Below are positions 11,064 through 60,546 of a stretch of DNA of 64,000 nt, one piece after another; the first letter of the stretch is position 1; each line of letters begins with the position of its first letter. The notes under the pieces are model-generated. The model worked only from the letters and a program-made list of their open reading frames with translations. It made no database searches and was not told the DNA's origin. Made by a program: the position numbers and the translations under genes. The DNA is from Pseudomonas poae (GTDB lineage Bacteria; Pseudomonadota; Gammaproteobacteria; Pseudomonadales; Pseudomonadaceae): contig CP034537.1 of the NCBI GenBank assembly GCA_004000515.1, positions 4,602,001-4,666,000 on the forward strand, read 5' to 3'.

Positions 11064-11117
11064 GTCTACGCCTCCTTGTAAGTTGCAAACACAATAGTTA
11101 ATCCAGCGACAATTCCC

Positions 11118-11206: not shown

Positions 11207-11233
11207 TTGATAAGTGTTGTGCTCAGGAACGCA

Positions 11234-13431: not shown

Positions 13432-13631
13432 GGTTTGAGCATCTACACCATTCTGTAGTGAGCGGGCTTGCCCCGCGCTGGGTGGGGAAGCCGCCCAAAC
13501 CATGGCACCTCGCTGTATCTGAGGCTTGATCAGGGCCGCTTCGCAGCCCAGCGCGGGGCAAGCCCGCTCACTACAGTTGCGCTAGATATTTCAGCTGACC
13601 CAGCGCTATCGCAGGCAAGCCAGCTCCCACA
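13432..13631. repeat. Nested REP elements
   Basis: An outer pair of diverged TGTGGGAGCTGG-type REP arms (13432 and 13631 ends) encloses a second, different palindromic pair. The inner arms, 13453-13482 and 13547-13576, are perfect 30-base complements of the TGTAGTGAGCGGGCTTGCCC type. It lies between the convergent tag and cupin genes and may act as a bidirectional transcript stabiliser. Confidence 0.85.
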
Positions 13632-20506: not shown

Positions 20507-20651
20507 GACGGGGCACTCTGGGTTAACGGCGGGCACGGTTTGAAAACTACAGGATCAGTCGCGATCCTGAAATAGATTTTTAGGGGAATGTATTGCCGTG
20601 CCTGCCGCGATGGATCAAAGCGCCTAGTTCAAAAACACTGTGGATGAACCA

Positions 20652-21955
20652 TCATGCCTGCTGGGTGATGTGTGCTGAGGTATCGATGTGTTTCTCGGTT
20701 GCAGGCCGTGACACCAGCGCGGCGATGGCTGCCACCAACGCCAACCCACCGACAAAGTAGCCGACGGGCATCCATGCGGTACCGTCGCCCAGCAATAGGT
20801 AGCAGACGCTGGGGGAAAAACCGGCAACCATAAAGCTCAGTTGCGTGGCCAACCCCACGCCTGTGTAGCGCACTCGAATGCTGAACATTTCTGCATAGAA
20901 GGAAGGCCACAAGGCATTGGGCGCGCTGTAGACGACGCCTTTGAGCAACACGGTACTGAGCACGATCAGCCATATCTGGCCGGTGGTAATCGACCACAAG
21001 AACAGGAATACCCCTGCGCAACAGGCCAGCGCGCCGGTCGCGAAGATGCGCTGTTTACCAATTTTATCCGCGAGCAGGCCAAACAGCGGCTGGCAAATCA
21101 GTGCAACGACCTGGCTGGCGGCTATCGCCGACAGCATGGATGCGCGGTCAACCTGTTGATTGTTAGTGGCCCAGGACAATCCAAAGATAATTACGAGTGA
21201 CGAAACCGAGCAAATCAACGCGCAGCAGAATACCGCGATAAAGGCGCGCCACTCTTTGCTGAACATCTCGACGACGGGAATGTGCGTTGCTGCTTGCTTC
21301 TTGGCCAGGAACTCTGGGCTTTCATCGACGCCCCTGCGAATGATCCAGGTGATCGCGACCATCACCGCGCTGAGCAGGAAGGGAATACGCCACCCCACGA
21401 CAATAGTTGCTCTTCGGACAGCATCGACAAAGGGATAAACACCGAAGTGGCGAGGATCGAACCCATCGAGGCGCCGTTAATCAGCCAGCTGGTGTAGAAA
21501 GCCTTATTTTTCCCGGGAGCGTGTTCCATGGTCAGCAGGCTCGCGCCAACTTGTTCTCCACCGGCTGAAAGCCCTTGAAGAAGTCGGCATACAACCAACA
21601 ACGCCGGCGCCCAGGCACCGATGCTGGCATGCGTGGGTAACAGGCCGATGGTAAACGTCGCCAGGCCCATGAGCAGAAGCGTCATCATCAGCACTTGTTT
21701 GCGCCCTATGCGATCGCCCAAATGCCCGAACAGCAATGCGCCTATAGGCCGGGCGATGTAGCCGACGCCGAACGTGGCCAATGCTGCCAGCGTCCCGGCC
21801 ATGGGATCGTCTGACGGGAAAAATAATTTATTGAAGACAAGTGCGGCGGCTGAGCCGTAGATGAAAAAGTCGTAGTACTCGACGACGCTGCCGAGAAAAC
21901 TACCCAATGCGGCTTTGCGGGCCATGCGCCGGTTGTCGGGTTGATGCGTGTTCAT
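20652..21955 (-). CDS. MHS-family MFS transporter (shikimate/organic-acid type); frame-disrupted
   Basis: Inner-membrane proton symporter of the metabolite:H+ symporter family, 434 residues after correction, 12 predicted membrane segments. The family opening is RKAALGSFLGSVVEYYDFFIYG, then GVGYIARPIGALLFGHLGDRIGRK and RLLQGLSAGGEQVGAS. The frame breaks at the C run 21393-21396 (minus-strand G run); adding one base restores LSWGWRIPFLLS. Start ATG 21955 follows AAAAGG. It is last in an operon with an SDR and a sugar-isomerase-like gene, so it probably imports their substrate. Confidence 0.88.
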
Positions 21956-22000
21956 AGGCAACCTTTTATTGTGATTGTGATGGTTGAACAGGTGATACGG

Positions 22001-22780
22001 TCAGCGATTTCCGAAGGGCGCCAATTGGCTACCGCCGCAGACATGGATGACTTCTGCGGTGATAAAGGCGGCATCGGTGGACGCCAGGAAGGACGTCGTG
22101 TTGGCGATGTCTTCAGGCGTGGTCAGGCGTTTTAGGGGGGTCACGCTGATCGACGTTTCAGCCATGAGTTCGAAGCTGGCCGCGTCGCGACCGTCCAGAG
22201 TGAAGGCCGAGGGCAGCAGACCTGGGGCGATTGCATTGACCGTTACGTTATGAGGCGCAAGTTCTCTGGCCATGGAGCGTGTCAGACCTACCAAGCCAGC
22301 CTTGCAAGCGACGTAGGCGGGCGGGCCTCCGGCGACCCAGCACCGCGACACCATATTGATGACCCTGCCACAGGACTGTGCCTTCCAATAAGGGGCAACC
22401 TTTTGGCATAACAATGCGGGGCCCCGCAGGTTGACGGCCATCATGTGATCCCAATGTTCGGCGTCGAAGTCGTAAATCGAACCTCGGTGATTGACGGCGG
22501 CATTGTTGACCACCACATCGATACGTCCGAAGGCATTCCCGGCTTCATTCACCATGGCAACGATGGAGCCTTCATCGCCGAGATCAGCCTGAATCGCGAT
22601 TGCGCGTTGATCCGGCTCGAGCTCCAGGGTTTGCACCAGGGCGAGCGCTGCTTGTCTATTCAGGTCGACGGCGACGATGTCCAGGCCGTCCTTGCACAAG
22701 CGTTTGCAGATGGCGCGACCTAACTCGCCGGCCGCTCCGGTAACCAGCGCAACCCGGCGGTTGGAGTGAGTGGCATTCAT
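22001..22780 (-). CDS. Short-chain dehydrogenase/reductase
   Basis: NAD(P)-dependent SDR of about 259 residues: cofactor motif TGAAGELGRAI, NNAA, Ser in INMVSR and Tyr/Lys in YVACK. The start ATG 22780 overlaps the stop of the upstream isomerase-like gene (ATGA), confirming start and coupling. The C-terminus has VIHVCGGSQLAPFG instead of the usual VDGG. It sits in the isomerase-SDR-MFS operon and likely acts on the same imported polyol or hydroxy acid; the substrate is unknown. Confidence 0.9.
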   Translation of the reverse strand: MNATHSNRRVALVTGAAGELGRAICKRLCKDGLDIVAVDLNRQAALALVQTLELEPDQRAIAIQADLGDEGSIVAMVNEAGNAFGRIDVVVNNAAVNHRGSIYDFDAEHWDHMMAVNLRGPALLCQKVAPYWKAQSCGRVINMVSRCWVAGGPPAYVACKAGLVGLTRSMARELAPHNVTVNAIAPGLLPSAFTLDGRDAASFELMAETSISVTPLKRLTTPEDIANTTSFLASTDAAFITAEVIHVCGGSQLAPFGNR

Positions 22781-23670
22781 TTGTATTGAGCCTCTTTTGT
22801 ACAAGAAAGGTCTCGCTCTATGTCGAGACCCATGTAGCGCCGAACGAGGGCGCGGTTGCGGGAAAGTTTTTGCAGATCGCTATAAGCGCTAGAGAAGTCC
22901 TCGATCGACACCCAGTCAGTGAAGCCACTGGCGCGTAGCGTCGACAGCATCGATTGCAGGGGCAGTACGCCTTCGTCCGGTGGGCACCACTCCCACTTCC
23001 AGCCTTGTCCCGGGCCCAACGCGCTATAGGCGACATTCTTGACCTGGACGTGAGCCAGATGCGCGCCCATCAGGTCCAGTGACATTTGCACGTCTTCGCG
23101 ACCTTCGATGGCGAGGTTGCCCATGTCATAAATGATGCCGAGCCATTCATGGGGATAGTGCTCGGCAACGCGCATTGCCAACGCCGGGCTGGAGCAAATG
23201 GTGCGCTGATGCACCTCCAGTGCCAGCTGAACCCCCTGCGCTTGGGCACGAGGGATAGCCTCATCGAGGAACCGACGCATCCGCGCATAGGCTTGGGGGT
23301 AGCGTTCATTCTCGTAGCTGGGTGCCCATAGTCTCAGGCGTGCGTTATTGGCGAGGACTGCCAGGTCTATCAGGCGATAGGTTTGCTCCAGGTCGCCAAC
23401 GGCGAGGTAGGGGCTGAGACCGAACACCTCCAACCCCAGTGACTGGCAATGCTGCTGAATTCGCGTAATGGCTGCAGCAGTTGGTGCGATGGTGCAGCGA
23501 TTGTTGCTGCGGGCGTTCCACGGATGCGTCGGATCGAGCTCTCTGGTTTCAGCGACCCGCCATTCAACCCCTTGGTAACCCAAACGGGCCAATTCATCGG
23601 CGAGCGCCTCCGGGCTGAGGCTGGGCAACGATGCGCTGGAGGCACCAAGTCGTGGCGTGGGGTGGGTCAT
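22777..23670 (-). CDS. Sugar phosphate isomerase/epimerase-like TIM-barrel protein
   Basis: AP-endonuclease-2-type TIM barrel, 297 residues. It contains a metal-site pattern of acids and histidines: LEVHQRTIC (Glu, His), IIYDMGNLAIEG (Asp), LAHVQVKNVAYS (His, Lys) and WVSIEDFS (Glu). The family includes inosose dehydratase, hydroxypyruvate isomerase and 3-dehydroshikimate dehydratase; I cannot choose among them. It is the first gene of the operon and is divergent from the LysR gene 130 bases away. Confidence 0.82.
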   Translation of the reverse strand: MTHPTPRLGASSASLPSLSPEALADELARLGYQGVEWRVAETRELDPTHPWNARSNNRCTIAPTAAAITRIQQHCQSLGLEVFGLSPYLAVGDLEQTYRLIDLAVLANNARLRLWAPSYENERYPQAYARMRRFLDEAIPRAQAQGVQLALEVHQRTICSSPALAMRVAEHYPHEWLGIIYDMGNLAIEGREDVQMSLDLMGAHLAHVQVKNVAYSALGPGQGWKWEWCPPDEGVLPLQSMLSTLRASGFTDWVSIEDFSSAYSDLQKLSRNRALVRRYMGLDIERDLSCTKEAQYK

Positions 23671-23718
23671 GAGGCGTGTACTCGACTTATTGGTTTTGTG
23701 TGTCGAGGTTCATGCTAG

Positions 23719-23736
23719 ATCAAACTTTTAGTTGAT
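23719..23736. promoter_or_regulatory. Candidate LysR-type operator
   Basis: ATCAAAC-N4-AGTTGAT is an interrupted near-palindrome in the AT-rich divergent region between the isomerase-like gene and the LysR gene. Position and symmetry fit an autoregulatory LysR box. Confidence 0.4.
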
Positions 23737-23800
23737 TAAATTGATAAATAATCCGCTGTTTATTAACCTGTGGGTTGACTAAGAAAGGTGAAAATTACGC

Positions 23801-24702
23801 GTGAGCCAAACTCCGATCAATCTCCGTCACCTGCGTGTATTCACCGCTGTGGTCAGCTCTGGCAGCTTGGTCACGGCGTCAAAGCTGCTGCACATCACGC
23901 TGTCCGCCGTGTCCAAAAGTCTCAAGGAGTTGGAGCTTGAACTGGATGTGCAGCTCTTGATTCGCGGACGTAAAGGCACGCGTCTGACCCAGGCAGGCGA
24001 AGCGTTTCACAAGCATGCGGCGCAGACGCTCGCAAGCTTCAACCAGGCGATGGATCCGACTCAAACAGCCACTCAAACGCCGCAGTTACTCCGGGTGGGC
24101 GCGTTGCCCACAGCTGCCGGTTTTATGCTTGCACCGGTGGTTGCGCAGATGCGCGAGCGCCATCCCCAGGTACGCGTTCAGGTTCTGTCGGGCGTCTACG
24201 ATTTTCTGGTGGGCAAATTGCGTACCCGCGACATTGATTTGATCGTGGGTCGCTTGATCGGAAGGGACATGCTTGGGGTGGCATTTGAAGCCCTCTACGA
24301 AGAGGATCTGTTGCTGGTGGTACGTGCGGATCACCCTTTGGCGCGGCGTGAACATTTGATGCTGGACGATTTATTACCCTATGTGCTTCTGGCCTCTCCA
24401 CAAGGCACGCTGGTGCGCATCAGTGTGGACAATTTTTGCTTTCCAATGGCGCCGCTGCCGGGTTCCAGATACTGGAATCGTTGAGCGAGACATTCTCCCG
24501 TGTCTATGTGCATGACCATGACGCTGTCTGGTTTGTACAGCGGGGTGTTGTTGATCTGGACTTGCGTCTGGGTATCGTGCGGGCGCTCCCTTTCGCCAGT
24601 CCGTTGTTGCGCGCGCCTGTCGGGCTGACGACCCCAACGGATCGTCAGCTCTCGGAAGCGGCTGAACACTTCATCCAGTTGCTGCGTGAATGGCGTGCGT
24701 GA
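23801..24702 (+). CDS. LysR-family transcriptional regulator; frame-disrupted
   Basis: 300-residue regulator after correction. The N-terminal helix-turn-helix is LRVFTAVVSSGSLVTASKLLHITLSAVSKSLKELE, followed by the effector domain with LRVGALPTAAGFMLAPVVAQ. A T is missing from the run 24433-24437; restoring it reads VDNFLLSNGAAAGFQILES and continues to REWRA. It starts with GTG. It is divergent from the isomerase/SDR/MFS operon, its likely target, and convergent with the dioxygenase gene, ending 12 bases from it. Confidence 0.88.
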
Positions 24703-24714
24703 CGTGTCCTGGGC

Positions 24715-25883
24715 CTATCGCTGCAAACGCTGACGCTCCAACACCAAAATACGCGACAACAGCTCATCCCTATCCACATAGCAGCCCTGCAGATGCCGCA
24801 CGCCTGAAGTCGGGTCGAAAGCATCGCGGGCGTGCAGGCTGCGGCGGTTGTCGAAGCACCACAGCTCGCCTTCATTCAAGCGCCGGCGAAACTGAAAGCG
24901 CGGTTCGCGGCTCAGTTCGATAAAGCGTCGATAGGCATGGTAGAGCGCGGGCATCAACTGTGGTGCGGTGGTGAATGGGCCGCGTAGAAAGTTCGCCATA
25001 CGGACTTCGGCTATTTCCCCGCGTGCGTCCAGCGCAATGATCGGTGCCAGGCAGCGGTAGTCGCTGTTGCGGTCCTTGTTGCGAAATTCCACCGGGATTT
25101 CGCACAGGTGGCGGAACGCTGCCGGGTCTTCTTCCTGCAGTGCCCTGGCCACGCTGAAACCATCGACAAACAAGCTGTCGCCGCCGCTGGCCTGGTTGAT
25201 CAGGCAGTGCAGAAATTGCAGCCCGGGCTGTAACTCACGGGTTGGCAGGTCGGTGTGCAAGGGCAGGTTGAACGGGGTGTAGGCGTTGCTGTCGGCATCC
25301 GCCTTGGGCTTGACGTTGAACAACACGCCAAAATTGCTTTCGCGGATAAACGAAATACGTTTGGCCAGCGCAATCAGCGACTCGGGGTCGGTGGGCACGT
25401 TACGTACCTGGGTCAGGCCGATGTCGCGAAGGGCCAGCAACCATTGCAGCAATATCTCGGGCTCCTCCATCACGGCCTGGTAGTCGAACACCGGCAGGTC
25501 GAGGTCATGGTGCCAATAGTGTTTTTGCCCACGGCGCTCGAGCTGTTCCTGGCGCGACGCATCGTCATAGGCGTGGGCGCGCAGCCAGCCGGGTTCAAAA
25601 CGGCTGCGGTGGCCGTCTTCCCAGTTGATCAGCAGCAGGCCCTCGGGGTCGATTTCGGCGCTGTGGGGCGCAGGTTTTCCGGTACGTCGGCAATTTCGAA
25701 GACTTGCTCTCGAGTCACGCCATACACGCACTCCGAGCACGGGCAGTTGTCCCGCAGCCACAGGTAGTGAAAGGGGCTCAGGCGCTGGTCCGCCCATTTG
25801 ACCTGCACCCGGTCTTCCAGGCACTCAACCGTCTCCAGCGAGCTGATCAGGGGGTACACGCGATAATCGGCAATCGAACTCAT
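24715..25883 (-). CDS. Gamma-butyrobetaine dioxygenase; frame-disrupted
   Basis: Iron/2-oxoglutarate oxygenase that hydroxylates gamma-butyrobetaine to L-carnitine. Start ATG 25883 follows GAGGAGATAGCC. The N-terminal GBBH domain (DUF971 type) has the zinc cluster DNCPCSEC; the TauD-type core has the iron site HTD (NLPLHTDLPTRE) and the distal His/Arg RSLHARDAFDPTSGVRHLQG. A C missing from the run 25665-25668 (minus sense) joins ENLRP to HSAEIDPEG, giving 389 residues, close to the Pseudomonas AK-1 enzyme. It lies 52 bases after a betaine/carnitine-type binding protein gene. Trimethyllysine dioxygenase is the nearest alternative. Confidence 0.85.
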
Positions 25884-25935
25884 GGCTATCTCCTCAACAA
25901 TGAAGTGCGGTGCAGCGGGGCGTTCGATTGAGGTC

Positions 25936-26853
25936 TCAGGGCGTGTAGGGTTCGCCGTTGTAGGTGGTGACACCGGCCGTCCAGCGCTGGTGATCGTCGG
26001 GGTGGTTTTTCAGCCACTCGCGGGCCATGTCCTGGGGCTTTTGCCCTGCCAGGATCGACACCATCATTGCGCTTTCGCTGGCGGTGGTGAAGGTCAGTTG
26101 ATCCAGCAAGCGCTGGACGTTGGGGCAGCGCGGGCCGAACGCCGGCGTGGTGACGGTCCACACCTGGGCCGCGCCTTCCTGTGGGCCGAGGGTGTCGTTG
26201 CTGCCGGTGAGGTATTGAATGTCGAAGTTCACATTCATCGGGTGCGGCGCCCAGCCGAAGAACACGATTGGGGTCTTGCGGTTCACCGCGCGTTGCAACT
26301 CGGCAAGCATGCCGGCCTCGCTGGATTCAACGATGCGAAAGCCCTTCAAACCGAATTGATCGGTGTCGATCAAGGCCTGCAATTGCTGGTTGGTCGCCGA
26401 GCCGGCCTCGATACCGTAGATCTTGCCGCCCAGGGCATCCTTGAAGCGGGCGATGTCGGCGAACGTTTTCAGGCCCTGGTCAAACAGATATTGCGGTACG
26501 GCCAGGGTGGCGTTTGCATGGGTCAGGTTGGGCGCGGCGGAGACGGTGATCTGCTGGTTGTCTTTCAGGGATTGGATTTCGGCGTTCATCAACGGGTCCC
26601 AATAGCCAAGGAACACGTCGAGTTTCTTGTCCTTGAGACCGGTGAGGATGATGCTTTCCGAGGCGAAGGTTTGCTTCACGTCGTAGCCCATTTTGCTCAG
26701 CAATTGCTTGGCGATGGCACTGGTGGCCATCACATCCGTCCAGTTGGCAACGCCCATTCTGATCTGTTTGCAGGCGCTGTCCGGCGCTGCAAGCAGTGAG
26801 CCGGAACACAACATCAAGGTAAACACACTCAGGTAGCGGGGCACGGTGCGCAT
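25936..26853 (-). CDS. Betaine/carnitine-type ABC substrate-binding protein (OpuAC family), orphan
   Basis: Periplasmic binding protein, 305 residues, with signal peptide (MRTVPRYLSVFTLMLCSGSLLAA) and the OpuAC fold: MGVANWTDVMATSAIAKQLLSKMGY, FLGYWDPLM, FFGWAPHPMN. The tryptophans in these motifs are the usual quaternary-ammonium cage. The start follows GGAGGAATGAACA. No permease or ATPase gene adjoins it. In P. aeruginosa, orphan binding proteins (CaiX for carnitine, BetX for betaine) work with a shared CbcWV core; that is the likely mode here. It is co-transcribed with the gamma-butyrobetaine dioxygenase and divergent from the Rieske oxygenase. Confidence 0.87.
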   Translation of the reverse strand: MRTVPRYLSVFTLMLCSGSLLAAPDSACKQIRMGVANWTDVMATSAIAKQLLSKMGYDVKQTFASESIILTGLKDKKLDVFLGYWDPLMNAEIQSLKDNQQITVSAAPNLTHANATLAVPQYLFDQGLKTFADIARFKDALGGKIYGIEAGSATNQQLQALIDTDQFGLKGFRIVESSEAGMLAELQRAVNRKTPIVFFGWAPHPMNVNFDIQYLTGSNDTLGPQEGAAQVWTVTTPAFGPRCPNVQRLLDQLTFTTASESAMMVSILAGQKPQDMAREWLKNHPDDHQRWTAGVTTYNGEPYTP

Positions 26854-26985
26854 TGTTCATTCCTCCAGGCTTGATTGGGCAGATGCTTGTTAACGGTTAT
26901 CCGGAGCTTTGTTTTTATTGTCAGCAACACGTAATAGGGCAAGACACTGCGCATAGCTGCGAGTTGAGGCGAACATAATCCCTAC

Positions 26986-26999
26986 TGAAATAGATTTCA
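26986..26999. promoter_or_regulatory. Operator-like palindrome, copy 1
   Basis: Perfect palindrome TGAAAT-AG-ATTTCA in the divergent region between the binding-protein and Rieske genes. The same form recurs at 27010 and, degenerate, twice before the aldehyde dehydrogenase gene. It is probably the site of a regulator encoded in this island. Confidence 0.6.
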
Positions 27000-27009
27000 A
27001 TAACGCTAG

Positions 27010-27023
27010 TGAAATAATTTTCA
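27010..27023. promoter_or_regulatory. Operator-like palindrome, copy 2
   Basis: TGAAAT-AA-TTTTCA, one mismatch from a perfect palindrome, centred 24 bases (about two helical turns) from copy 1, so two dimers would sit on nearly the same DNA face. An outer repeat (CCTACTGAAA .. TTTTCAGTAGG) ties the two copies into a larger inverted repeat. Confidence 0.58.
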
Positions 27024-27075
27024 GTAGGTGCGTGGATCCCAGCCATTGCTTTTCTCGCAGGTTTCCGAGATTATT

Positions 27076-27114
27076 TTGTTAACCAAAGGTTTATCGTAAA
27101 CCAACAGTTAACAA
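27076..27114. promoter_or_regulatory. 39-bp interrupted palindrome just upstream of the Rieske gene
   Basis: Two nested inverted repeats share the exact centre at 27095: TTGTTAAC/GTTAACAA (outer, 8 bp) and GGTTTA/TAAACC (inner, 6 bp, 3-base centre). It ends 24 bases before the GTG start of the oxygenase, so it is either an operator at or downstream of the promoter or a hairpin in the 5' leader. Confidence 0.55.
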
Positions 27115-27138
27115 TAATAACCCAAGAGACCGCCGATC

Positions 27139-28260
27139 GTGAACACCTTCCTGAAATTGCCTGCCGATTTTTGTGCCGATGTCGAACGCGCTCACACGCT
27201 GCCGGCTGCGTATTACACGCAACCACAGGTGTTTGAGCAGGAGAAAGAGGCGATCTTCGCCAAGAGCTGGATCTGTATCGGTCATCGCAGCGAGGTGGCC
27301 GAGAGCAACGCCTACATCACCCGGGAAATTGTCGGCGAAAGCATCATTGTCGTGCGCGGCCGCGACGCAGTGCTGCGGGCCTTCTATAACGTGTGCCCAC
27401 ACCGTGGCCATCAGTTGTTGACCGGCAGCGGCAAGGCGAAAAATGTCATCACCTGCCCGTACCACGCCTGGGCGTTCAAGCTCGACGGCGAACTGGCCCA
27501 CGCGCGCAATTGCGAAAGCGTCGCCGACTTCGACAAAGACAACTCCAGCCTGGTGCAACTGCGGGTCGAGGAGTACGCGGGGTTCATCTTCATCAATATG
27601 GACAACGCCGCCGGTACCGTCGAAGCGCAACTGCCGGGACTGGAAACCAGCATGCGCGAGGCCTGCCCGGTGATTGACGACCTGCACCTGGCGGCGCGGT
27701 TTGTGAGTGAAACGGCGGCAAACTGGAAGTCCATCGTTGACAACTACCAGGAGTGCTACCACTGCGCGCCGGCGCATCCGGGGTTCTCCGATTCGGTGGA
27801 TGTCAGCCAATACACCCACACGCTGTTCCAGAATTGGTCGTTGCAGTTTGGCCGGGCGAAGTCCTCCGAGCGCTCGTTCCAGTTCGATGACACGGGCGAT
27901 GCGGCGAAGTATTCCGGCTATTGGATCTGGCCCTGCAGCATGTTCAACATGCCACCGGGCGGCAACTTCATGACGGTGATCTACGAGTTCCCGGTGGACG
28001 CCAACACCACCCTGCAGCATTACGACGTGTACTTCCTGAACAAAGACATCACCCCCGAGCAGCAAGCGCTGATCGAGTGGTACCGCGACGTGTTCCGCCC
28101 CGAAGACCTGCGGCTGGTGGAGAGCGTGCAGCGCGGCCTGAAGTCCCGTGGTTATCGCGGCCAGGGCCGGATCATGACCGACAAGGCCCGCAGCGGCCTG
28201 AGCGAGCATGGCATCGCGCACTTTCACAACATCATCGCCCGTACCCAGCACAGCGACTGA
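27139..28260 (+). CDS. cntA: Carnitine monooxygenase oxygenase subunit-like Rieske protein (CntA/YeaW type)
   Basis: Rieske non-haem iron oxygenase predicted to cleave carnitine into trimethylamine and malic semialdehyde. The 373 residues equal the CntA/YeaW length. The Rieske ligands are C86, H88 (CPHRGH) and C106, H109 (CPYHAW). The mononuclear site ECYHCAPAH gives H208 and H213, with D323 in RPEDLRLVE. The bridging residue is Glu205, the unusual glutamate reported for CntA in place of aspartate; all these numbers agree with CntA as I remember it. It starts with GTG. The reductase gene follows 30 bases later. Glycine betaine or stachydrine oxygenases are related, so substrate is inferred with help from the neighbouring gamma-butyrobetaine dioxygenase. 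Confidence 0.82.
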   Translation: MNTFLKLPADFCADVERAHTLPAAYYTQPQVFEQEKEAIFAKSWICIGHRSEVAESNAYITREIVGESIIVVRGRDAVLRAFYNVCPHRGHQLLTGSGKAKNVITCPYHAWAFKLDGELAHARNCESVADFDKDNSSLVQLRVEEYAGFIFINMDNAAGTVEAQLPGLETSMREACPVIDDLHLAARFVSETAANWKSIVDNYQECYHCAPAHPGFSDSVDVSQYTHTLFQNWSLQFGRAKSSERSFQFDDTGDAAKYSGYWIWPCSMFNMPPGGNFMTVIYEFPVDANTTLQHYDVYFLNKDITPEQQALIEWYRDVFRPEDLRLVESVQRGLKSRGYRGQGRIMTDKARSGLSEHGIAHFHNIIARTQHSD

Positions 28261-28290
28261 GCAACGGTAACCCTGCAAGTGAGGTGAGTG

Positions 28291-29265
28291 ATGGCTGACA
28301 AATACCAATGGTTCAAGGTGAAGGTGCTCGGGGTTGAGCAACAGACGCCGCTGATCAAGCGTTTTACCCTGGCCCGTGAAGACGGCCAGGCGCTGCCGGC
28401 GTTTACAGGCGGCAGCCACGTGATTGTGCAAATGCAGGAGGCTGACGGGCGTCAGCACAGCAATGCCTATTCGCTGCTGAGCGACCCGGCGGACACCCGC
28501 CATTACCAGATTGCCGTGCGCCTTGAAGACCCGTCCAAGGGCGGTTCGGCGTTTATGCATCGCCAGGTCGAGGTCGGCACGGTGCTGACCCTTTCCAGCC
28601 CCAACAACCTGTTTGCCATTGACCCAGGCGCGGCGCGGCATGTGTTGATCGCCGGCGGGATTGGCATCACCCCGTTCCTGGCGCAGCTCCCCGAATTGCG
28701 TGCGAGCGGGGCGGATTACCAACTGCACTACGCGTTCCGCAGCCCCGAACACGGTGCATTTCACCCTGAGTTGATGGCCGGTCCCCACGCCGAACGCACG
28801 CGGCTGTACATCGACAGCCAAGGCCAAACGCTGGACATCCACGCGTTGATCGCCGGGCTGGACGACGCTGCGCACGTGTATGTGTGCGGCCCCCGGCCGT
28901 TGATCGATGCGGTCATCGACACCGCCCGGCAGTTGGGTGTAGCGGAAAGCCGCGTGCATTGGGAGCAGTTTGCTGCGGCGACGCCTGCAAACAGCGGTGC
29001 GTTCAGCGTAACCCTGGCGCGCTCCGGTCGCGAGTTGTGGGTGGAGGAGGGCATGAGCATCTTGCAGGCCATTGAAAACGCCAAGGCCGCGACCGTGGAA
29101 TGCCTGTGTCGGGAGGGTGTGTGCGGCACCTGTGAAACGCAGATTCTGCAGGGTGAAGCGCAGCATCTGGACCAATACTTGAGTGATGAGGAAAAAGCCG
29201 CGCAAAAAACCCTGATGATCTGTGTGTCCCGTGCACGAGGCGCATCGCTGGTGTTGGACCTGTAG
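28291..29265 (+). CDS. cntB: Carnitine monooxygenase reductase-like protein (CntB/YeaX type)
   Basis: Electron-transfer partner of the Rieske oxygenase, 324 residues from ATG 28291 (GAGGTGAGTG upstream). An FAD/FMN-binding domain (SNAYSLLSDPADTRHYQIAVR) is followed by the NAD domain (VLIAGGIGITPFL, YVCGPRPLIDAV) and a C-terminal plant-type 2Fe-2S ferredoxin (ECLCREGVCGTCE, then C in MICVSRA). This VanB/phthalate-dioxygenase-reductase order matches CntB/YeaX. Transcription ends at a terminator directly downstream, making cntAB its own unit. Confidence 0.85.
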   Translation: MADKYQWFKVKVLGVEQQTPLIKRFTLAREDGQALPAFTGGSHVIVQMQEADGRQHSNAYSLLSDPADTRHYQIAVRLEDPSKGGSAFMHRQVEVGTVLTLSSPNNLFAIDPGAARHVLIAGGIGITPFLAQLPELRASGADYQLHYAFRSPEHGAFHPELMAGPHAERTRLYIDSQGQTLDIHALIAGLDDAAHVYVCGPRPLIDAVIDTARQLGVAESRVHWEQFAAATPANSGAFSVTLARSGRELWVEEGMSILQAIENAKAATVECLCREGVCGTCETQILQGEAQHLDQYLSDEEKAAQKTLMICVSRARGASLVLDL

Positions 29266-29283
29266 CTGCAACGGTGTTGATCG

Positions 29284-29306
29284 AGCCCGCGAAAGCGGGC
29301 TTTTTA
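29284..29306 (+). terminator. Rho-independent terminator of the oxygenase/reductase operon
   Basis: AGCCCGC-GAAA-GCGGGCT stem-loop with a GNRA-type loop and T run, 18 bases after the reductase stop. Confidence 0.92.
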
Positions 29307-29307
29307 T

Positions 29308-29321
29308 TGAATTTAATTTCA
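29308..29321. promoter_or_regulatory. Operator-like palindrome, copy 3
   Basis: TGAATT-TA-ATTTCA, matching the TGAAAT-N2-ATTTCA form at 11 of 12 arm positions, immediately after the terminator and before the aldehyde dehydrogenase gene. Confidence 0.5.
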
Positions 29322-29340
29322 ATAGAGGCTTGTTTGTTAT

Positions 29341-29354
29341 TGAATGGAATTTCA
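29341..29354. promoter_or_regulatory. Operator-like palindrome, copy 4
   Basis: TGAATG-GA-ATTTCA, 33 bases centre-to-centre from copy 3 and 50 bases before the aldehyde dehydrogenase start. The ATTTCA half is conserved in three of the four copies. Confidence 0.5.
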
Positions 29355-29404
29355 GTATGGCCTAGGATTGCCACAGCCTGACAAGAACAAGATGAGGTGT
29401 TGCA

Positions 29405-30901
29405 GTGCCAGTTTTGAAAGACACAACCTATTGGCTCCAGAAAGCCAAAGACCTGCGCCTCGAAGGCCGGGCGTTTATTGATGGGGTCTACGCGCACGCC
29501 GATGACGGGGCGACCTTTGGCTCCTACAGCCCGATTGACGGTGAGCCGCTGGTGCAGGTTGCGCTGTGTGCCAGCGCCGATGTCGACAAAGCCGTAGCGG
29601 CGGCAAGGCGCAGTTTTGAGGCCGGGGTCTGGTCGGCCCTGGCGGCGCGTGATCGCAAAGCCGTGCTGCTGAAATGGGCGAACTTGCTGGAAACCCATAG
29701 CGACGAGTTGGCCTTGCTTGAGTCTCTGGACAGCGGCAAGCCCATCGCCGACACCACCGGTGGTGACCTCCCAGGAACGATTTATTGCCTGCGCTGGTTT
29801 GCTGAACTGATCGACAAGCTGCACGGCGAGGTGCCCGCCACTGAACCGGGCTTTTTTGGCACCGTGACCCGTCAACCGCTCGGCGTGGTAGCGGCGGTAG
29901 TGCCGTGGAATTACCCCCTGCTGATGGCCGCCTGGAAGTTCGCCCCGGCATTGGCTGCGGGTAACAGCGTGGTGCTCAAACCGTCGGAAAAGACCCCGCT
30001 CAGCGCGCTGCGTATCGCCGGGTTGGCCCTGGAGGCGGGGCTGCCTGCAGGCGTATTCAATGTGTTGGGTGGCGACGGCGCGACAGGCCGGGCGCTGAGC
30101 CTGCATGGCGATGTCGACTGCATCGCGTTCACCGGTTCCGGGGCGGTCGGTCGAGATATCGCGAAGAACGCGGCCGCCTCCAACCTCAAGCGTGTCTGGC
30201 TGGAGCTGGGCGGCAAGTCGGCGAATATCGTCATGGCCGACTGTGCGGACATCGGCCAGGCCGCACGTTCTGCCGCCGCCGCGATTTTCGCCAACATGGG
30301 CCAAGTGTGCAGCGCGGGTTCGCGGCTGCTGGTTCAACGCTCGATAGCCGACCGGTTTATCCCGTTGCTACTCGATGCCACCGATGCCTATCAGCCTGGC
30401 CATCCGTTGGACCCCGACAGCGTGACCGGCGCCATTATCGACCGCGCGCAGTTCGAGCGGGTCTGCCAGTTCATCGTGCTGGGCCGGCAGGAAGCGCAGT
30501 TGCTCAAGGGCGGCAACCCGTTGTCGGTGGTCGGGGAGGGCGCTTACCTGGAACCGACGATCTTTCTCGCCCAAGACCCATCGGCACGTATCGCCACTGA
30601 AGAGATCTTCGGCCCAGTGCTGGTGGTGATGCTGTTCGACACCCTCGAAGAGGCGATCGCGATCGCCAACAGCACCGAATACGGCCTGGCGGCGGCCATT
30701 TGGTCGTCCGACCTGAAGACTATTCATGCCGCCACCCGCCAACTCAAGGCCGGCACGGTGTGGGTCAACTGTTATGACGAACTGGTGGATATGAACTTCC
30801 CGTTTGGCGGGTTCAAGGAGTCCGGCAATGGTCGGGATAACTCCGCTCACGCGCTGGGCAAGTACACCGAGTTGAAATCAACCATCACGCGTTGCGGTTA
30901 A
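29405..30901 (+). CDS. NAD(P)-dependent aldehyde dehydrogenase
   Basis: Soluble aldehyde dehydrogenase, 498 residues, starting with GTG after GATGAGGTG. Key residues are the Asn of VPWNYPLLMAAWKFAPALAAGN, the general-base Glu in LELGGKSANI, the nucleophile Cys in GQVCSAGSR and the late EEIFGPVLVV and FPFGGFKESGNG motifs. The sequence is of the betaine-aldehyde/GABA-aldehyde class. In this setting it would oxidise malic semialdehyde, the product of the CntA reaction, to malate (inference). It heads a second transcript with the Fe-dehydrogenase and permease, behind two operator-like palindromes. Confidence 0.92.
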   Translation: MPVLKDTTYWLQKAKDLRLEGRAFIDGVYAHADDGATFGSYSPIDGEPLVQVALCASADVDKAVAAARRSFEAGVWSALAARDRKAVLLKWANLLETHSDELALLESLDSGKPIADTTGGDLPGTIYCLRWFAELIDKLHGEVPATEPGFFGTVTRQPLGVVAAVVPWNYPLLMAAWKFAPALAAGNSVVLKPSEKTPLSALRIAGLALEAGLPAGVFNVLGGDGATGRALSLHGDVDCIAFTGSGAVGRDIAKNAAASNLKRVWLELGGKSANIVMADCADIGQAARSAAAAIFANMGQVCSAGSRLLVQRSIADRFIPLLLDATDAYQPGHPLDPDSVTGAIIDRAQFERVCQFIVLGRQEAQLLKGGNPLSVVGEGAYLEPTIFLAQDPSARIATEEIFGPVLVVMLFDTLEEAIAIANSTEYGLAAAIWSSDLKTIHAATRQLKAGTVWVNCYDELVDMNFPFGGFKESGNGRDNSAHALGKYTELKSTITRCG

Positions 30902-30911
30902 GGTGAGTCCC

Positions 30912-32095
30912 GTGCAAAACACTCTTTCAGCGTTGAACCCACAGAAGTGGACCGTCCCCCTGCCAATCGAGTATGGCCCTGGCGCCCGTCGGCAACTGGT
31001 CGAGCTTTGCCGCGAATTCAACATTTCCCGGCCGATTATCATCACCGACCAAGGCTCGTTGAACCTGCCCTTTGTCGGTGAGATGCAGCAGCCTGACCGC
31101 CGCCGGCCTGGCATGCGGCCTGTACGGTGGCATCGAGCCCAACCCCACGGACACCTCGGTTATCGCCGGTGCCGCTGCGTTCCGCGAGTGGCGCGCCGAC
31201 GGCGTTATTGCGTTGGGTGGCGGCAGCGGCCTGGACGGTGGCAAGGCCGTGGCGTTGATTGCCCAGCAGCAGCGTTGTGACCTGTGGGCATTCGATTTCG
31301 ACCAGCCCGTGCCCAGCGGTTTTGGCAGCGCCGATTTCCCGCCGGTGATCACCATTCCGACCACCGCCGGCACTGGCGCGGAAACCGAAAGCACCGCGAT
31401 GCTCACCGACACCGCTCGTGGCATCAAGGGCTGTGTCTGGCACCCTCGGGCGCGGCCTTCGGCGGTGATCCTCGACCCGGAACTGACCCAAAGCCTGCCC
31501 GCCAACCTGACAGCGTGGACCGGCTGCGATGCAATCATCCATGCCCTGGAAGCCTACTTTGTTCCCAGCTTCAACCCCCCTCAGCGACGGCGCGGCGCTG
31601 CAAGCCCTGAGCCTGCTCTGGACCTCGATCGACACCGCAGTCGCCCAGGGGCAGGACCTCGAAGCTCGCGGCAAGATGCTGATCGGTTCATGCCTGGCCG
31701 GCGTGGGCTTTCTCAAGGGGCTGGGGTTGGTGCATGCCCTCAGCCATATGGTCGGCGCGACCTACAACACCCATCATGGCTTGACCAACGCGATCATCCT
31801 GCCGGTGGTGCTGCGGTTCAACCAGGCTGACATCAGCCCGCGCCTGACCCCCGTGGCCCAGGCCCTCAGTCTGCCGGACGCCGGTTTCGAAACGTTCTAC
31901 ACCGCCATCTGCGCCAAGCTCGACCACCTCAATATCCCCAAATCCCTCTCGGCCCTGGGTGTGCAGCACGCCGACATCGGCGTGATCGCTCGCAAGTCCA
32001 TGGGCGATCCCGCGCGCTTGACCAACCCCCGCGACAGCTCCGTTGAGCAACTTGAGCAACTGCTGGCCCAGGCGATCGACAAGGCCCGCGACTGA
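30912..32095 (+). CDS. Iron-containing alcohol dehydrogenase (group III); frame-disrupted
   Basis: Fe-dependent NAD(P) alcohol dehydrogenase, 393 residues after two corrections. It has the nucleotide motif GVIALGGGSGLDGGKAVAL, IPTTAGTGAETE, and the metal histidines in GLVHALSHMVGATYNTHHGLTNAI, with Asp in WTGCDAIIHALEAY. Breaks lie near 31083-31092 and in the C6 run 31575-31580 (one C too many: FNP then LSDGAALQAL). Start GTG 30912 after AAGGTGAG is preferred to 30903. It follows the aldehyde dehydrogenase by 10 bases. Its role in a carnitine route is unclear; it may handle a hydroxy- or semialdehyde intermediate. Confidence 0.85.
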
Positions 32096-32152
32096 TTGAC
32101 CCGCTGTACCGCTTTGCCGTGCAACCAAACCAATAAAAAAGGTGCAACTCAC

Positions 32153-33598
32153 ATGTCTGCCTCTCCCCAAGTCGCGTCCAAGGGACGCCTGAACCTGGAA
32201 ACCCGCTCCATCGATTACGTGCCGCTTGCCGAGCGCCATGGCAAGGCCTGGCACTTGTGGCCGATCTGGTTCTGCGGCGAAGCCCACCTCACCACGCTGG
32301 CTGTCGGCATCATCGGTGTTGGCATGGGTGCCAACCTGTTCTGGTCGGCGGTGGCGATTTTCCTCGGGTGTGCGTTCGGCACGCTGTTCATGGCTGGGCA
32401 CTCCACTCAAGGCCCGCAGATGGGCCTGCCGCAACTGATCCAGTCGCGCCCGCAATTCGGTTATTTCGGCGCGCTGTTGGTGTACGCGGCGGCCATCGCT
32501 ACGTATGTGGGCTACAACGCGTTCAACCAATTGCTGGTGGGGCAAACCCTGCACGAACTGTTCGACGCGCCGGAACATGGCTCGGCCATCGCCTTTTCGT
32601 TGCTGGCGATTGTCATGGCAATTGCCGGCTACAACACCTTCCACAAGGTGCAGCGGGTGCTCGCGTTTGTATTGATTGGCGTGATGCTGGTGTTCACCGT
32701 CGGCCTGGTGTTCCTGGTCAAATTGCCGGCTGAGCAGTTGAGCGTTTCCGGGTTCAAGGCCACGCCGTTCCTGGCGCAGTTTTTTGTCGCGGCTGCCTAT
32801 CAACTGAGCTGGGCGATTTATGTCTCTGACTATTCGCGCTACCTGCCGGCGAATGTCAGCGTGAAATCCTCGTTCTGGTGGACCTACCTGGGCGCCATGA
32901 TTGGCGGCGTGTGGATGATGTTGATCGGCGCCCTGGCCGCAGCATTGAGCCCGGGGCAGAACCTGGCCAAAGGCCTGGTGATGCTCGGCAACCTGCTGTT
33001 CAGCGGCTTTGGCGAGTTTCTGTTGATCCTCGCCGTGCTCAGCCTGGTCACCAGTGCCGCACAGAACTTCTACGGCGCATCCATCACCCTGCTGAGCATT
33101 GCCGACACGATCAAAAGCCAGACCTCAACCCTGTTCAAACGCATCGTTTCGATGCTGCTGGTGGGCGGCACCGCGATTGCCATCGCGATGACGGCATCGG
33201 ATAACTTCGTGAAGGAATTCGGCGACTTCCTCGCGATCCTGCTGTACCTGTTCACGCCCTGGACCGCGATTAACCTGGTGGATTTCTACAAGGTGCGCCA
33301 CGGCAAATTCTCGATTACCGAGATCTTCAAGCCCAACGGCATCTATGGCCGCTGGAACTGGCGCGGAATTGGCGCCTATGTGGCGGGGTTCGTGGCGATG
33401 CTGCCGTTCTCCAGCACCGGCTTGTACACCGGCTACGTCACCACGCTGCTCGGCGGTGCGGACATCAGCATGTTGGTAGGCCTGGTGGTGTCGGCGCTGG
33501 TCTACGGTTGGCTGTGCCGCTCGCAGAATATCGCTCAGGAACTGTCGCGCATCGAGGTGCTGGACAAGGACCTGGAAAGCGGCCTGCAAGCCGGCTGA
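32153..33598 (+). CDS. NCS1-family permease (cytosine/purine/hydantoin type)
   Basis: Inner-membrane secondary transporter, 481 residues, 12 predicted helices. It shows the NCS1 pattern: IDYVPLAERHGKAWHLWPIWFCGE near the N-terminus, GHSTQGPQMGLPQLIQSRPQFG, YVSDYSRYLP and a late FTPWTAINLVDFYKVRHGKF. The start is ATG 32153 after AAAAAGG. It is third in the aldehyde-dehydrogenase transcript. NCS1 proteins normally carry nucleobases or related heterocycles, so its presence in a quaternary-amine island, where a BCCT carrier is usual, is notable. Confidence 0.88.
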   Translation: MSASPQVASKGRLNLETRSIDYVPLAERHGKAWHLWPIWFCGEAHLTTLAVGIIGVGMGANLFWSAVAIFLGCAFGTLFMAGHSTQGPQMGLPQLIQSRPQFGYFGALLVYAAAIATYVGYNAFNQLLVGQTLHELFDAPEHGSAIAFSLLAIVMAIAGYNTFHKVQRVLAFVLIGVMLVFTVGLVFLVKLPAEQLSVSGFKATPFLAQFFVAAAYQLSWAIYVSDYSRYLPANVSVKSSFWWTYLGAMIGGVWMMLIGALAAALSPGQNLAKGLVMLGNLLFSGFGEFLLILAVLSLVTSAAQNFYGASITLLSIADTIKSQTSTLFKRIVSMLLVGGTAIAIAMTASDNFVKEFGDFLAILLYLFTPWTAINLVDFYKVRHGKFSITEIFKPNGIYGRWNWRGIGAYVAGFVAMLPFSSTGLYTGYVTTLLGGADISMLVGLVVSALVYGWLCRSQNIAQELSRIEVLDKDLESGLQAG

Positions 33599-33613
33599 AG
33601 CACCGTCTTACGC

Positions 33614-33637
33614 CTCACCGCCTGCAATGGGCGGTGA
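33614..33637 (+). other. Hairpin after the NCS1 permease gene
   Basis: CTCACCGCC and its perfect complement GGCGGTGAG enclose a 6-base loop 16 bases after the permease stop. There is no T run, so it may be a weak terminator or an mRNA 3'-end stabiliser. Confidence 0.4.
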
Positions 33638-33778
33638 GTGCGTCCCTGCAAACCCGTCTCCCGCTGATTTCCTGCCACTCATCGCGCAAAAAGTTGCTAA
33701 ATTGACGCCTCGTTTAAAGCCCTGGCCTTGATCCTCGTCGTTGATGGACGCCAAGGAATGGATTTTTAGGATGGCTCG

Positions 33779-34752
33779 ATGAGTGAAGACAGTTTCGCGT
33801 TTCGCCTCAAGGAGCTTCTGGAACACAAGAAGTTGACGCTGCAAGCCGTCGCGGGAGCGCTCTGCGTGTCGCGCACGGCTGTCCATAAGTGGACCCGTGG
33901 GGGGAAATCGACTACGACAACCTGCGCAAATTGTCCGGGCTGTTGGACGTCAACTGGATCTGGCTGCGCTATGGCGCACAGGCCCAGCAAGACGTGCAAC
34001 ACAGCCCGCCGCAAGCGCTGCCCATGACCGAGATGCGCCGCAAGCACACCGCCCAGATCATGGAGAGCGAGGCGCGCATGAAGCTCGCCCAGGAAAACGC
34101 ACGCATCGTGACCTGGGAGTGGAACCTGCTGACCGACGAGGTCACCTATTCAAGCAACGTGCAGGCCGTCTACGGCTGGCCCGTCAAGCACAACGAAGAC
34201 TTCTGGAGCCATATTCCACCCGACGAAGTGCCGGCCTTGCAGGCGGTGTTCGAGCGCTCCATCAGCAGCGGGCAACCCTGTGACACCGACTTTCGCATGC
34301 TGACCCCAGAAGGCGAGGTGCGCTGGATCTCATCGCGGGCCACGCCGTTGCTGGACGACGCCGGTCGCGCCCTTAAAATGATCGGCATCAGCATGGACAC
34401 CACGGCTCGCAAGGTCGCCGAAGACGCTGTGCGCCACAGTGAAGACCGGCTGCGCATGGTGTTTGAGCTGGCGGACGAAGCCATGGCGTTTATCGATGTT
34501 GATGGACGTTGGCTGACGGTGAACCCGGCGTTCACGCAGTTGAGCGGGTACGCGATTGACGACCTGATCGGGTCCAACGTGAGCACACTGCTGCAACCTG
34601 GCGCGCCGCTATTGGCGTCTATCGTGGCATCGCCGTTGAAGGTGCACGAGCAAGTGGGCCAGTTGCGTCACAAAACCGCTGCGCCCGTGCCGGTCCGCCT
34701 CAAGGCCCGGCTGCACCTTGAGCAGATTGTCATGGTTCTTGCCGCCGTTTGA
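33779..34752 (+). CDS. XRE helix-turn-helix protein fused to PAS domains; frame-disrupted
   Basis: One-component regulator, 324 residues after correction. The N-terminal XRE domain (FAFRLKELLEHKKLTLQAVAGALCVSRTAVHKWTRGG) is joined to two PAS domains. The first (MKLAQENARIVTWEWNLLTDEVTYSSNV; TDFRMLTPEGEVRWISSRA; PAC tail ISMDTTARKVAED) is complete. The second (RLRMVFELADEAMAFIDVDGRWLTVNPAF) is short. No kinase, GGDEF or EAL domain follows. The frame breaks in the G6 run 33899-33904; one more G restores RGGEIDYDNL. The start follows TTTTTAGGATG. It probably senses a small molecule and controls this island; ligand unknown. Confidence 0.82.
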
Positions 34753-34786
34753 TGGCGATTAATGTTGCGTAAACACAGGTTGATGT

Positions 34787-35434
34787 ATGAGCACTGAGTC
34801 AGAAGGGATTGCCGTCAAGAAACGCCGCACCCGTATCGAGCCCGAAATGCGCCGCAAGGCGATCATCGAGGCGACGATGCAATGCATCACCCGCTACGGC
34901 CACAGCGGCAGCACCCTGGAGCGGATCTGCGCGCAGGCTGGAGTGTCCATCGGCCTGATCGGGCATCACTTTTCCAGCAAGGAAGAGTTGATGCTGTCGA
35001 CCTACCAGGAGTTGACCGACCAACTGCGCGAAGAAACCCGCAAATACCTGGAAGCCCAGGGTGGCACCCCAGAAGACCGTTTACTGGCGATCATTCGTTC
35101 GTCGTTTCGCGGGCAGATTTTCAACGAGTTCATCCTCACCACGTGGTTGGGCTTCTGGGGCGCAGCGGTGTCCTCCGAGCAGCTTCGTGCACTGAACAAA
35201 AAGCTCTACGCCGATTACCGCAAGGAGCTGGAGTCGGTGTTCAAGGCCATCGCCCAGCAAAACCGCACGCAAATCGACGCCAAGGCCGCCGCCCTGACCA
35301 TTACCGCGTTGATCGATGGTTTCTGGTTGGAATGGGCCCTGGACCATAAGGCCTTCAGTCCGAAAAAGGCCGAGAAGTGCTGTATCACCACGGCCCAGAT
35401 GTTCGTGAAGAGTGCAGAGCCGCTTCAATCCTGA
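34787..35434 (+). CDS. TetR-family regulator (BetI-like)
   Basis: 215-residue DNA-binding repressor. The helix-turn-helix RRKAIIEATMQCITRYGHSGSTLERICAQAGVSIGLIGHHFSSKEEL resembles BetI, the choline-responsive repressor, and the C-terminal half follows the same pattern (FNEFILTTWLGFWGAAVSSEQLR, ALIDGFWLEWALD). Placed at the end of the carnitine-type island, it is the best candidate to bind the repeated TGAAAT-N2-ATTTCA palindromes. That link is inference. Confidence 0.88.
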   Translation: MSTESEGIAVKKRRTRIEPEMRRKAIIEATMQCITRYGHSGSTLERICAQAGVSIGLIGHHFSSKEELMLSTYQELTDQLREETRKYLEAQGGTPEDRLLAIIRSSFRGQIFNEFILTTWLGFWGAAVSSEQLRALNKKLYADYRKELESVFKAIAQQNRTQIDAKAAALTITALIDGFWLEWALDHKAFSPKKAEKCCITTAQMFVKSAEPLQS

Positions 35435-35642
35435 CGGCCGGCACGGCCTGCAATCGCGCGAAATCAATAGGATTTCGCCGCCTCGGGGCCTGCCAAGACA
35501 ACTGTTCCGATAAACCGTTCCTCAGCTAAGTCTTTGCTTATTCACAAGAATCCCGGACAATCGCGCCCCTTCTATGGCTGGGGCGCTGCCTGTCAGGTTT
35601 TTCTGACTCGTCCCGGCCGTGTAAATGCGGAGATCCGACCGG

Positions 35643-54366: not shown

Positions 54367-54388
54367 CCTCAACGCAATGAAGATCAAC

Positions 54389-54475: not shown

Positions 54476-54501
54476 ATAAGCTGCCCCCCGTTTGACCGGG
54501 G

Positions 54502-60527: not shown

Positions 60528-60546
60528 TCTGAAATGCTCGAAAAAA

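Follow-up and report, generated by a model that had tools for sequence, protein, structure and literature searches.

Described systems closest to the locus

A carnitine review (PMC2131755) describes stoichiometric production of trimethylamine from carnitine by Acinetobacter calcoaceticus, which is also able to utilize gamma-butyrobetaine; the review names the hydroxylase of Pseudomonas AK1. Two arrangements of cnt genes serve as reference, the CntAB operon of A. baumannii and the CAR module of Psychrobacter pP32BP2 (LysR, malate dehydrogenase (MDH), BCCT, CntA, malic semialdehyde dehydrogenase (MSA-DH), CntB), the latter a plasmid-borne cnt operon (PMC6514802). Here we analyse a 64,000-nucleotide stretch of Pseudomonas poae contig CP034537.1 (the window), in which a group of genes at 24715–35434, hereafter the island, has CntA and CntB orthologues in common with these systems. 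The island lacks their LysR, MDH, BCCT and GabD-type MSA-DH, and adds a dioxygenase, a binding protein, an NCS1 permease, an iron-containing alcohol dehydrogenase (Fe-ADH), a PuuC-like aldehyde dehydrogenase (ALDH), a BetI-like regulator and an XRE-PAS regulator.

The Pseudomonas carnitine dehydrogenase cluster (cdhR, caiX-cdhCAB) is comparable in having a dioxygenase of the same family (the island protein is 70% identical to the resident copy of genome G321, another species) and a binding protein (54%), whereas the island joins these two genes to cntAB on a mobile block. The cnt loci of Burkholderia and Paraburkholderia resemble the island in carrying an NCS1 gene (55–59% identity) beside cntA and an XRE-PAS gene, with no BCCT detected; in contrast to the island, their cntA and cntB flank a GabD-type MSA-DH gene, and neither a dioxygenase nor an Fe-ADH or BetI-like gene was detected in these stretches. 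The BetIBA/GbsAB choline oxidation modules also combine an alcohol and an aldehyde dehydrogenase with a BetI-type repressor and a similar operator half-site, but the island Fe-ADH scores far below the GbsB cut-off, its operator spacing is 6 rather than 2, and its genes are linked to a dioxygenase and CntAB. The carnitine review also lists a 1982 study with P. putida among its references. Among the open-licence papers listed in our literature searches we found no description of the present gene set, which is weak evidence of absence.

A proposed three-module catabolic island

Our preferred account, which as a whole we judge to be just on the probable side, is that of a mobile catabolic island built of three modules. 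The first (binding protein and dioxygenase) would take up gamma-butyrobetaine and hydroxylate it to L-carnitine, and the second (CntAB and the XRE-PAS regulator) would convert carnitine, and also gamma-butyrobetaine, to trimethylamine and a C4 aldehyde acid. The third (ALDH, Fe-ADH, NCS1 and the BetI-like repressor; module 3) would import and oxidize a related quaternary amine, for which the likeliest candidate is a compound that gives rise to gamma-butyrobetaine, either an alcohol or an aldehyde (4-trimethylammonio-butanol, for example). A private twin operator would join modules 1 and 3 in a BetI-type regulon, with cntAB controlled separately, and the C4 aldehyde acid would be finished by chromosomal GabD-type dehydrogenases and a tartrate/D-malate-type dehydrogenase. 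The enzyme families, the gene order, the mobility and the shared operator-like sites are features of the sequence itself; the substrates of ALDH, Fe-ADH and NCS1, the pairing of regulators with sites and the direction of flux are inferred.

In its fullest form, the proposal has the island convert 4-trimethylammonio-butanol aerobically all the way to trimethylamine, by way of gamma-butyrobetaine and carnitine, with a private BetI-type repressor (choline half-site, altered spacing) and an NCS1 permease carrying carnitine or butyrobetaine, to our knowledge a new substrate class for that family; we regard this form as possible but doubtful. The explanations weighed below are not fully exclusive, and the probabilities attached to them need not sum to one. 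The island offers candidate genes for 4-trimethylamino-1-butanol dehydrogenase activity, predicts a quaternary-amine subfamily among NCS1 permeases and suggests that a single block common to Pseudomonas species can hold the genes for making trimethylamine aerobically from gamma-butyrobetaine; the presence of cntA alone is insufficient to define the surrounding pathway. An earlier note on this DNA had read the genes as a route from gamma-butyrobetaine through carnitine to malate with release of trimethylamine; the mobility, the sister copy in G321 and the shared operator go beyond that reading.

CntAB and the gamma-butyrobetaine dioxygenase

Pfam and NCBIfam profile scans recovered ten genes at 24715–35434, bearing out the gene list of the earlier note, strands included: a TauD-type dioxygenase and an OpuAC-type binding protein on the minus strand and, on the plus strand, a Rieske oxygenase, a reductase, an aldehyde dehydrogenase, pieces of an Fe-ADH, an NCS1 permease, a PAS protein and a BetI-type TetR regulator. 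By sequence, the Rieske protein (cntA, 27139–28260, plus strand) is a true CntA, the oxygenase subunit of carnitine monooxygenase (Rieske group V), as had been supposed. It scored 620.9 bits against the solved A. baumannii CntA (6y8j), with the next family at 112.9, and keeps the catalytic residues Y203, E205, C206 and C209 (A. baumannii numbering), DNYQECYHC aligning to DNYMECYHC; the roles of Tyr203, Glu205, Cys206 and Cys209 are given in PMC7948474 and PMC10952381. The CntA reductase gene, cntB (28288–29265, plus strand), encodes flavin, NAD and 2Fe-2S domains. By analogy with the CntA and CntB orthologues, trimethylamine release is expected here. Among 398 Pseudomonas genomes, an even draw from a larger group, cntA occurs in 34 at a minimum of 74% identity, with the next matches at 38% or below.

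The dioxygenase open reading frame (ORF; 24715–25824, minus strand) has a broken N-terminus in the window and scores 375 against TIGR02409, below the cut-off of 414.75; the intact copy in G321 passes with 436.9, upholding its earlier assignment as a gamma-butyrobetaine dioxygenase. Against the models of the phosphonate and trimethyllysine enzymes the intact copy stays below cut-off. HTD and LHARD align with HTD and LHGRR of the human enzyme, so that the iron-binding His-x-Asp and the distal His are kept, as is the C-terminal Tyr; all are invariant in five aligned rows. By these sequence criteria the island protein is a true gamma-butyrobetaine dioxygenase.

Another betaine as the main substrate, for example valerobetaine or a stachydrine-like compound with carnitine as a side substrate, would fit the closest solved relative of the dioxygenase, the phosphonate enzyme TmpA, and the BetI-like, Fe-ADH and NCS1 proteins, whose specificities are putative. 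We consider it very improbable: CntA reaches 621 bits against carnitine monooxygenase but only 98 bits against 3vca, which we take to be the structure entry of stachydrine demethylase, and the intact dioxygenase passes the butyrobetaine cut-off only.

CntA acts on gamma-butyrobetaine itself, according to PMC7948474 and PMC11353897, the latter describing the A. baumannii enzyme as highly active on it. The dioxygenase is therefore not strictly needed for trimethylamine formation, so that, of the earlier route from butyrobetaine through carnitine to trimethylamine, the identities of CntAB and the dioxygenase stand and the strict requirement for the dioxygenase does not.

We surveyed the neighbourhoods of cntA over approximately 10 kb on each side, less at contig ends, using identity thresholds. 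The survey of Pseudomonas CntA homologues, which the earlier note had proposed, covers the 34 loci in the 398 genomes; a second set holds 80 named cnt loci, the best 80 of 220. Dioxygenase matches at E 1e-80 occur in 168 of the 398 genomes, 161 of them above the TIGR02409 cut-off, and in 6 of the 34 genomes with cntA, where 14.4 would be expected (P 0.0015 for the lower tail, uncorrected for descent). Linkage of dioxygenase and cntA, an unfamiliar layout to the earlier note, is indeed rare. It was found in 3 of the 34 genus loci, two of which (the window genome and G321) are the present island itself, the third (G060, locus L144) having a 40% relative approximately 9 kb from cntA. Among the named loci it was found in 1 of 80 (L056, P. 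taeanensis), again with a more distant relative (39%) approximately 9 kb from cntA.

The binding protein (25936–26853, minus strand), a predicted periplasmic quaternary-amine binding protein, lies barely above the TIGR03414 cut-off (379.7 versus 379.05). It is 54% identical to the cdh-linked protein of G321 and 66% identical to a dioxygenase-linked protein of G201. We rejected it as a CaiX orthologue, the identity being only 54% and another relative in the present genome being nearer at 57%. In PMC5806209, CaiX is a binding protein without its own permease that uses CbcWV; the orphan OpuAC protein pointed out earlier is thus present, and there is precedent for its lack of a permease.

The resident carnitine dehydrogenase cluster

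In G321 the resident cluster runs from a CdhR-like regulator through genes for a CaiX-like protein, a cleavage enzyme and CdhA (NF005471, 663 versus 414) to a CdhB-like thioesterase, after which comes a resident dioxygenase (some names were assigned by eye). The earlier note had contrasted the locus with the carnitine dehydrogenase route of P. aeruginosa; the window genome keeps that cluster too, with several genes in broken frames and minus its own dioxygenase. The resident dioxygenase gene is cleanly absent (L171 13075–13079, approximately 1.915 Mb), with alignments continuing on both sides, and the island dioxygenase is the only copy in the genome at E 1e-80. Because the cluster is retained and the island supplies the sole dioxygenase, carnitine could go to betaine or to trimethylamine.

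This arrangement also fits parallel uses, in which the dioxygenase would feed the resident carnitine dehydrogenase towards glycine betaine and CntAB would cleave butyrobetaine directly. The clean absence of the resident dioxygenase gene from a cluster otherwise present, the high activity of A. baumannii CntA on butyrobetaine (PMC11353897) and the difference between the predicted operators of the dioxygenase and cntA all favour such a division. We nevertheless consider it improbable, as two species share one 10.7-kb block that holds the genes for both forming and cleaving carnitine, and G321 carries it despite having its own resident dioxygenase and cdh cluster.

Mobility and integrity of the block

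The block at 24728–35415 is 96.7% identical over 10.7 kb to a segment of G321 at approximately 4.41–4.43 Mb, near transposase genes. The flanks of the window match G321 elsewhere, at 5.18–5.24 Mb (79–95% identity), approximately 0.8 Mb from the block. At this flank-matching site G321 has approximately 68 bp in place of window positions 20594–35513, which defines a 14.9-kb insertion, and in G017 the junction is uninterrupted across the whole 1,351-bp query at 89% identity (the junction search covered 38 genomes, of which 25 had any match, most on one side only). Next to the block, G321 has a transposase whose C-terminal domain is of Mu type and remnants of an integrase and of IS66, along with weak TniQ and ATPase matches below their respective cut-offs. 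From these comparisons, the block appears to be mobile DNA that moved into the present Pseudomonas.

A plasmid origin was not borne out, with no near match to the island among 72,556 plasmid records, and a foreign base composition was dismissed as uninformative (59.7% GC in the insertion versus 60.5% in the window). Rfam and tRNA scans of the window returned nothing, so no tRNA gene marks an integration site within it. The ends of the insertion and of the island (approximately 200 bp each) contain no shared direct 9-mer, and inverted matches there are short, one of 12 and one of 9 bases. Positions 20652–24484, in the left part of the insertion, encode an MFS transporter (split), an SDR, a xylose-isomerase-like protein and a short LysR gene, all absent from the G321 block.

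Several reading frames of the island are interrupted in the assembly. The first approximately 55 residues of the dioxygenase ORF are out of frame, with the matching N-terminus directly upstream in another frame; Fe-ADH (30903–32095, plus strand) is spread over three frames; and the XRE part of the XRE-PAS regulator (33779–34752, plus strand) lies in another frame from the rest, beginning with an ATG at 33779. Compared with G321, CntA, CntB, ALDH and NCS1 each occupy a single frame, and the binding protein and BetI-like gene are full-length ORFs in the window. With G321 proteins matched at >70% identity as the yardstick, frames are also split for 4 of 12 proteins of the carnitine dehydrogenase region and for 4 of 15 ORFs of the window flank. 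Because broken frames are similarly frequent outside the island, the breaks within it are likelier to be mostly assembly indels than selective decay. That the island is decaying or an artefact and without present function, as the three broken genes would suggest, is in our view quite unlikely: besides these similar shares elsewhere, several other aldehyde dehydrogenases in the genome are split into adjacent pieces, and G321 has unbroken dioxygenase and Fe-ADH genes, its own break being in the BetI-like gene.

The NCS1 permease takes the place of BCCT

The 34 genus cntA loci contain D-malate dehydrogenase (27), BCCT (27), XRE-PAS (21), GabD-type MSA-DH (15), dioxygenase (3), NCS1 (2) and Fe-ADH (2). 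In the same survey the island was found to lack GabD-type MSA-DH, D-malate dehydrogenase, BCCT and LysR. The earlier extension of the route to malate is thus not carried by the island itself, which is without the first two enzymes; a 51% MDH relative and GabD-type genes lie elsewhere in the window genome. In A. baumannii the product is D-malate (PMC11353897).

The NCS1-family permease (32153–33598, plus strand; start probably ATG 32153) passes the PF02133 gathering cut-off (141.7 versus 23.5) and fails that of TIGR00800 (85.6 versus 353.1). In all 13 of the Burkholderia/Paraburkholderia named loci the NCS1 gene is divergent from cntA, with no BCCT detected in the stretches, and two Burkholderia multivorans replicons have NCS1 divergent from the oxygenase and no BCCT listed. 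On a Novosphingobium plasmid, a 55% NCS1 relative adjoins a carnitine 3-dehydrogenase (698.9 versus 592), a cleavage protein and a GlxA-type regulator. A tree of 27 NCS1 rows groups the seven from Pseudomonas module 3 in one clade (support 100/99) and the 14 from Burkholderia/Paraburkholderia in another (99/96), with long-branch placements unsure. Since NCS1 replaces BCCT in 13 of 13 Burkholderia/Paraburkholderia cnt loci, the island protein is probably a carnitine/butyrobetaine carrier, and its locus context suggests a substrate other than a nucleobase-type ring.

The earlier note had found two parts of this layout unfamiliar. An NCS1 rather than a BCCT carrier is unusual within the genus (2 versus 27 of 34 loci) but is the rule in Burkholderia/Paraburkholderia; the XRE-PAS regulator is present as stated and is not unusual, adjoining cnt in 21 of the 34 genus loci.

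Module 3 is predicted to work upstream of gamma-butyrobetaine

Module 3 also occurs in other settings. In G226, G289 and G172 it is at a distance from cntA, L051 has it next to a complete canonical cnt operon, and in L032 it accompanies cntAB. In G201, a genome without cntA, Fe-ADH, the BetI-like gene, the binding protein (67%) and the dioxygenase (61%) form one same-strand run. Fe-ADH orthologues were found at E 1e-130 in 5 of the 398 Pseudomonas genomes; the window genome, whose broken copy falls below this threshold, was added by hand. Five of these six genomes contain cntA (P 1.9e-5), or 4 of 5 when the window genome is excluded (P 1.9e-4), descent not being corrected in either case.

The ALDH (29405–30901, plus strand) is closest to the PuuC/KauB omega-aminoaldehyde class, its nearest solved chain being 4lih, a gamma-glutamyl-gamma-aminobutyraldehyde dehydrogenase (667 bits), with KauB slightly further. 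The substrates of gamma-glutamyl-gamma-aminobutyraldehyde dehydrogenase and KauB are N-substituted 4-aminobutanals. Fe-ADH fails the cut-off of GbsB-type choline dehydrogenase (217.5 versus 550). A 4-trimethylamino-1-butanol dehydrogenase has reportedly been purified from Pseudomonas sp. 13CM, in a study cited by PMC4431990, and we know of no gene for it. Because dioxygenase and module 3 have a predicted switch in common and recur together, the alcohol/aldehyde dehydrogenase pair most likely works upstream, yielding gamma-butyrobetaine.

The pair could instead act after CntA, with ALDH standing in for the absent MSA-DH by oxidizing malic or succinic semialdehyde and Fe-ADH interconverting the matching hydroxy acid, 3,4-dihydroxybutyrate or 4-hydroxybutyrate. 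The island, L032 and G289 all lack a GabD-type enzyme in the cnt locus; the nearest curated family of Fe-ADH is 4-hydroxybutyrate dehydrogenase; and in L036, L040 and L122, whose operons lack a GabD-type dehydrogenase, a 51% ALDH relative lies beyond the cnt LysR gene. CntA yields an aldehyde from butyrobetaine too (PMC11353897), presumably succinic semialdehyde. We nevertheless regard this placement as possible but less likely. The operator predicted for module 3 is common to the dioxygenase and not to cntA, and Fe-ADH accompanies the dioxygenase in G201 without cntA. Among five other cases of module 3 with cntA, a count that leaves out the window genome and G321, a GabD-type gene is present in the cnt locus of three (G172, G226 and L051) and absent from two (G289 and L032), so module 3 is not merely an MSA-DH stand-in.

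On plasmids, a search for Fe-ADH relatives at E 1e-60 gave a single match, at 40%, in an unannotated record. A sulfatase-like neighbour of a 53% Fe-ADH relative in another genus (G722, L197 7619–9343) was rejected as a choline sulfatase (211.7 versus 433.45).

Predicted operators join modules 1 and 3

A twin TANTGAA-N6-TTCANTA element, its copies 33–34 bp apart, precedes ALDH (Fe-ADH in G201) in the five outside loci that have the module-3 promoter in view (L032 and L176–L179, L176 being the G201 locus), with 9 of 10 copies exact. The window has such a pair ahead of ALDH (29305–29324 and 29338–29357) and, in the gap that separates the binding protein gene from cntA, a second pair spaced 24 bp, ahead of the binding protein–dioxygenase genes (26983–27002 and 27007–27026). 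The 7.5-Mb genome has no exact match beyond these four; 1.56 Mb of sequence from 78 named cnt loci without module 3 gave seven matches, two of them exact. The resident betI/betT intergenic palindrome, TTGATTGAACGTTCAATCAA, has half-sites ATTGAA..TTCAAT equal to those of the island operators, at a spacing of 2 bp rather than 6 bp. One further operator-like site with a single mismatch lies at G000:C1:6801090-6801109.

cntA is immediately preceded by its own 35-bp palindrome (27078–27112), a predicted XRE-PAS operator in a layout matching that of L032. The idea that this palindrome is exclusive to XRE-bearing loci held only partly (29 of 32 versus 14 of 49 at a lax threshold). The BetI-like TetR regulator (34787–35434, plus strand) scores above the NF001978 cut-off (141 versus 118) and below that of TIGR03384 (140.5 versus 201.3). 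Pairing it with the twin sites, and XRE-PAS with the cntA palindrome, we infer that modules 1 and 3 would form one BetI-type regulon with cntAB under separate control.

Several observations weigh against the three-module account. The operator pattern was written after all sites, the window's included, had been seen, so that the four exact matches in the window against 0.01 expected are not an independent test; at one mismatch or fewer the genome has five sites versus six for the reversed control, so exactness and clustering are enriched and the total is not. In L032 a binding protein gene is present with no operator site ahead of it. The best family matches of both dehydrogenases fail their cut-offs (Fe-ADH to 4-hydroxybutyrate dehydrogenase, 273.8 versus 500; ALDH to PuuC (NF007352), 610.9 versus 850), and the substrates proposed for ALDH, Fe-ADH and NCS1 are read from family and context. 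Two Fe-ADH relatives at the phylum level (51–53%; 378 genomes) had no carnitine gene recognized nearby by eye. NCS1 relatives at 41–43% adjoin unrelated genes, a 60% Rhodococcus relative adjoins acyl-CoA genes, and BCCT is retained in the cnt loci of two members of the order to which Burkholderia belongs, Achromobacter (L052) and Curvibacter (L087). Finally, three island genes (dioxygenase, Fe-ADH and XRE-PAS) are broken in frame in the assembly.

Other features of the window

A terminator-like hairpin lies in the cntB/ALDH gap (29283–29302, plus strand), with a similar hairpin at the equivalent place in L032; the terminator scan gave 14 matches versus 12.1 by chance, and the hairpin belongs to the near-chance class and has no weight alone. 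The promoter scan gave three matches versus 2.8 by chance, one of them overlapping operator copy 1, and likewise has no weight alone. Outside the insertion, short repeats at approximately 11116–11209, 13452–13577, 54376–54476 and 60543–60636 have many copies in related genomes and are, we presume, REP-type elements.

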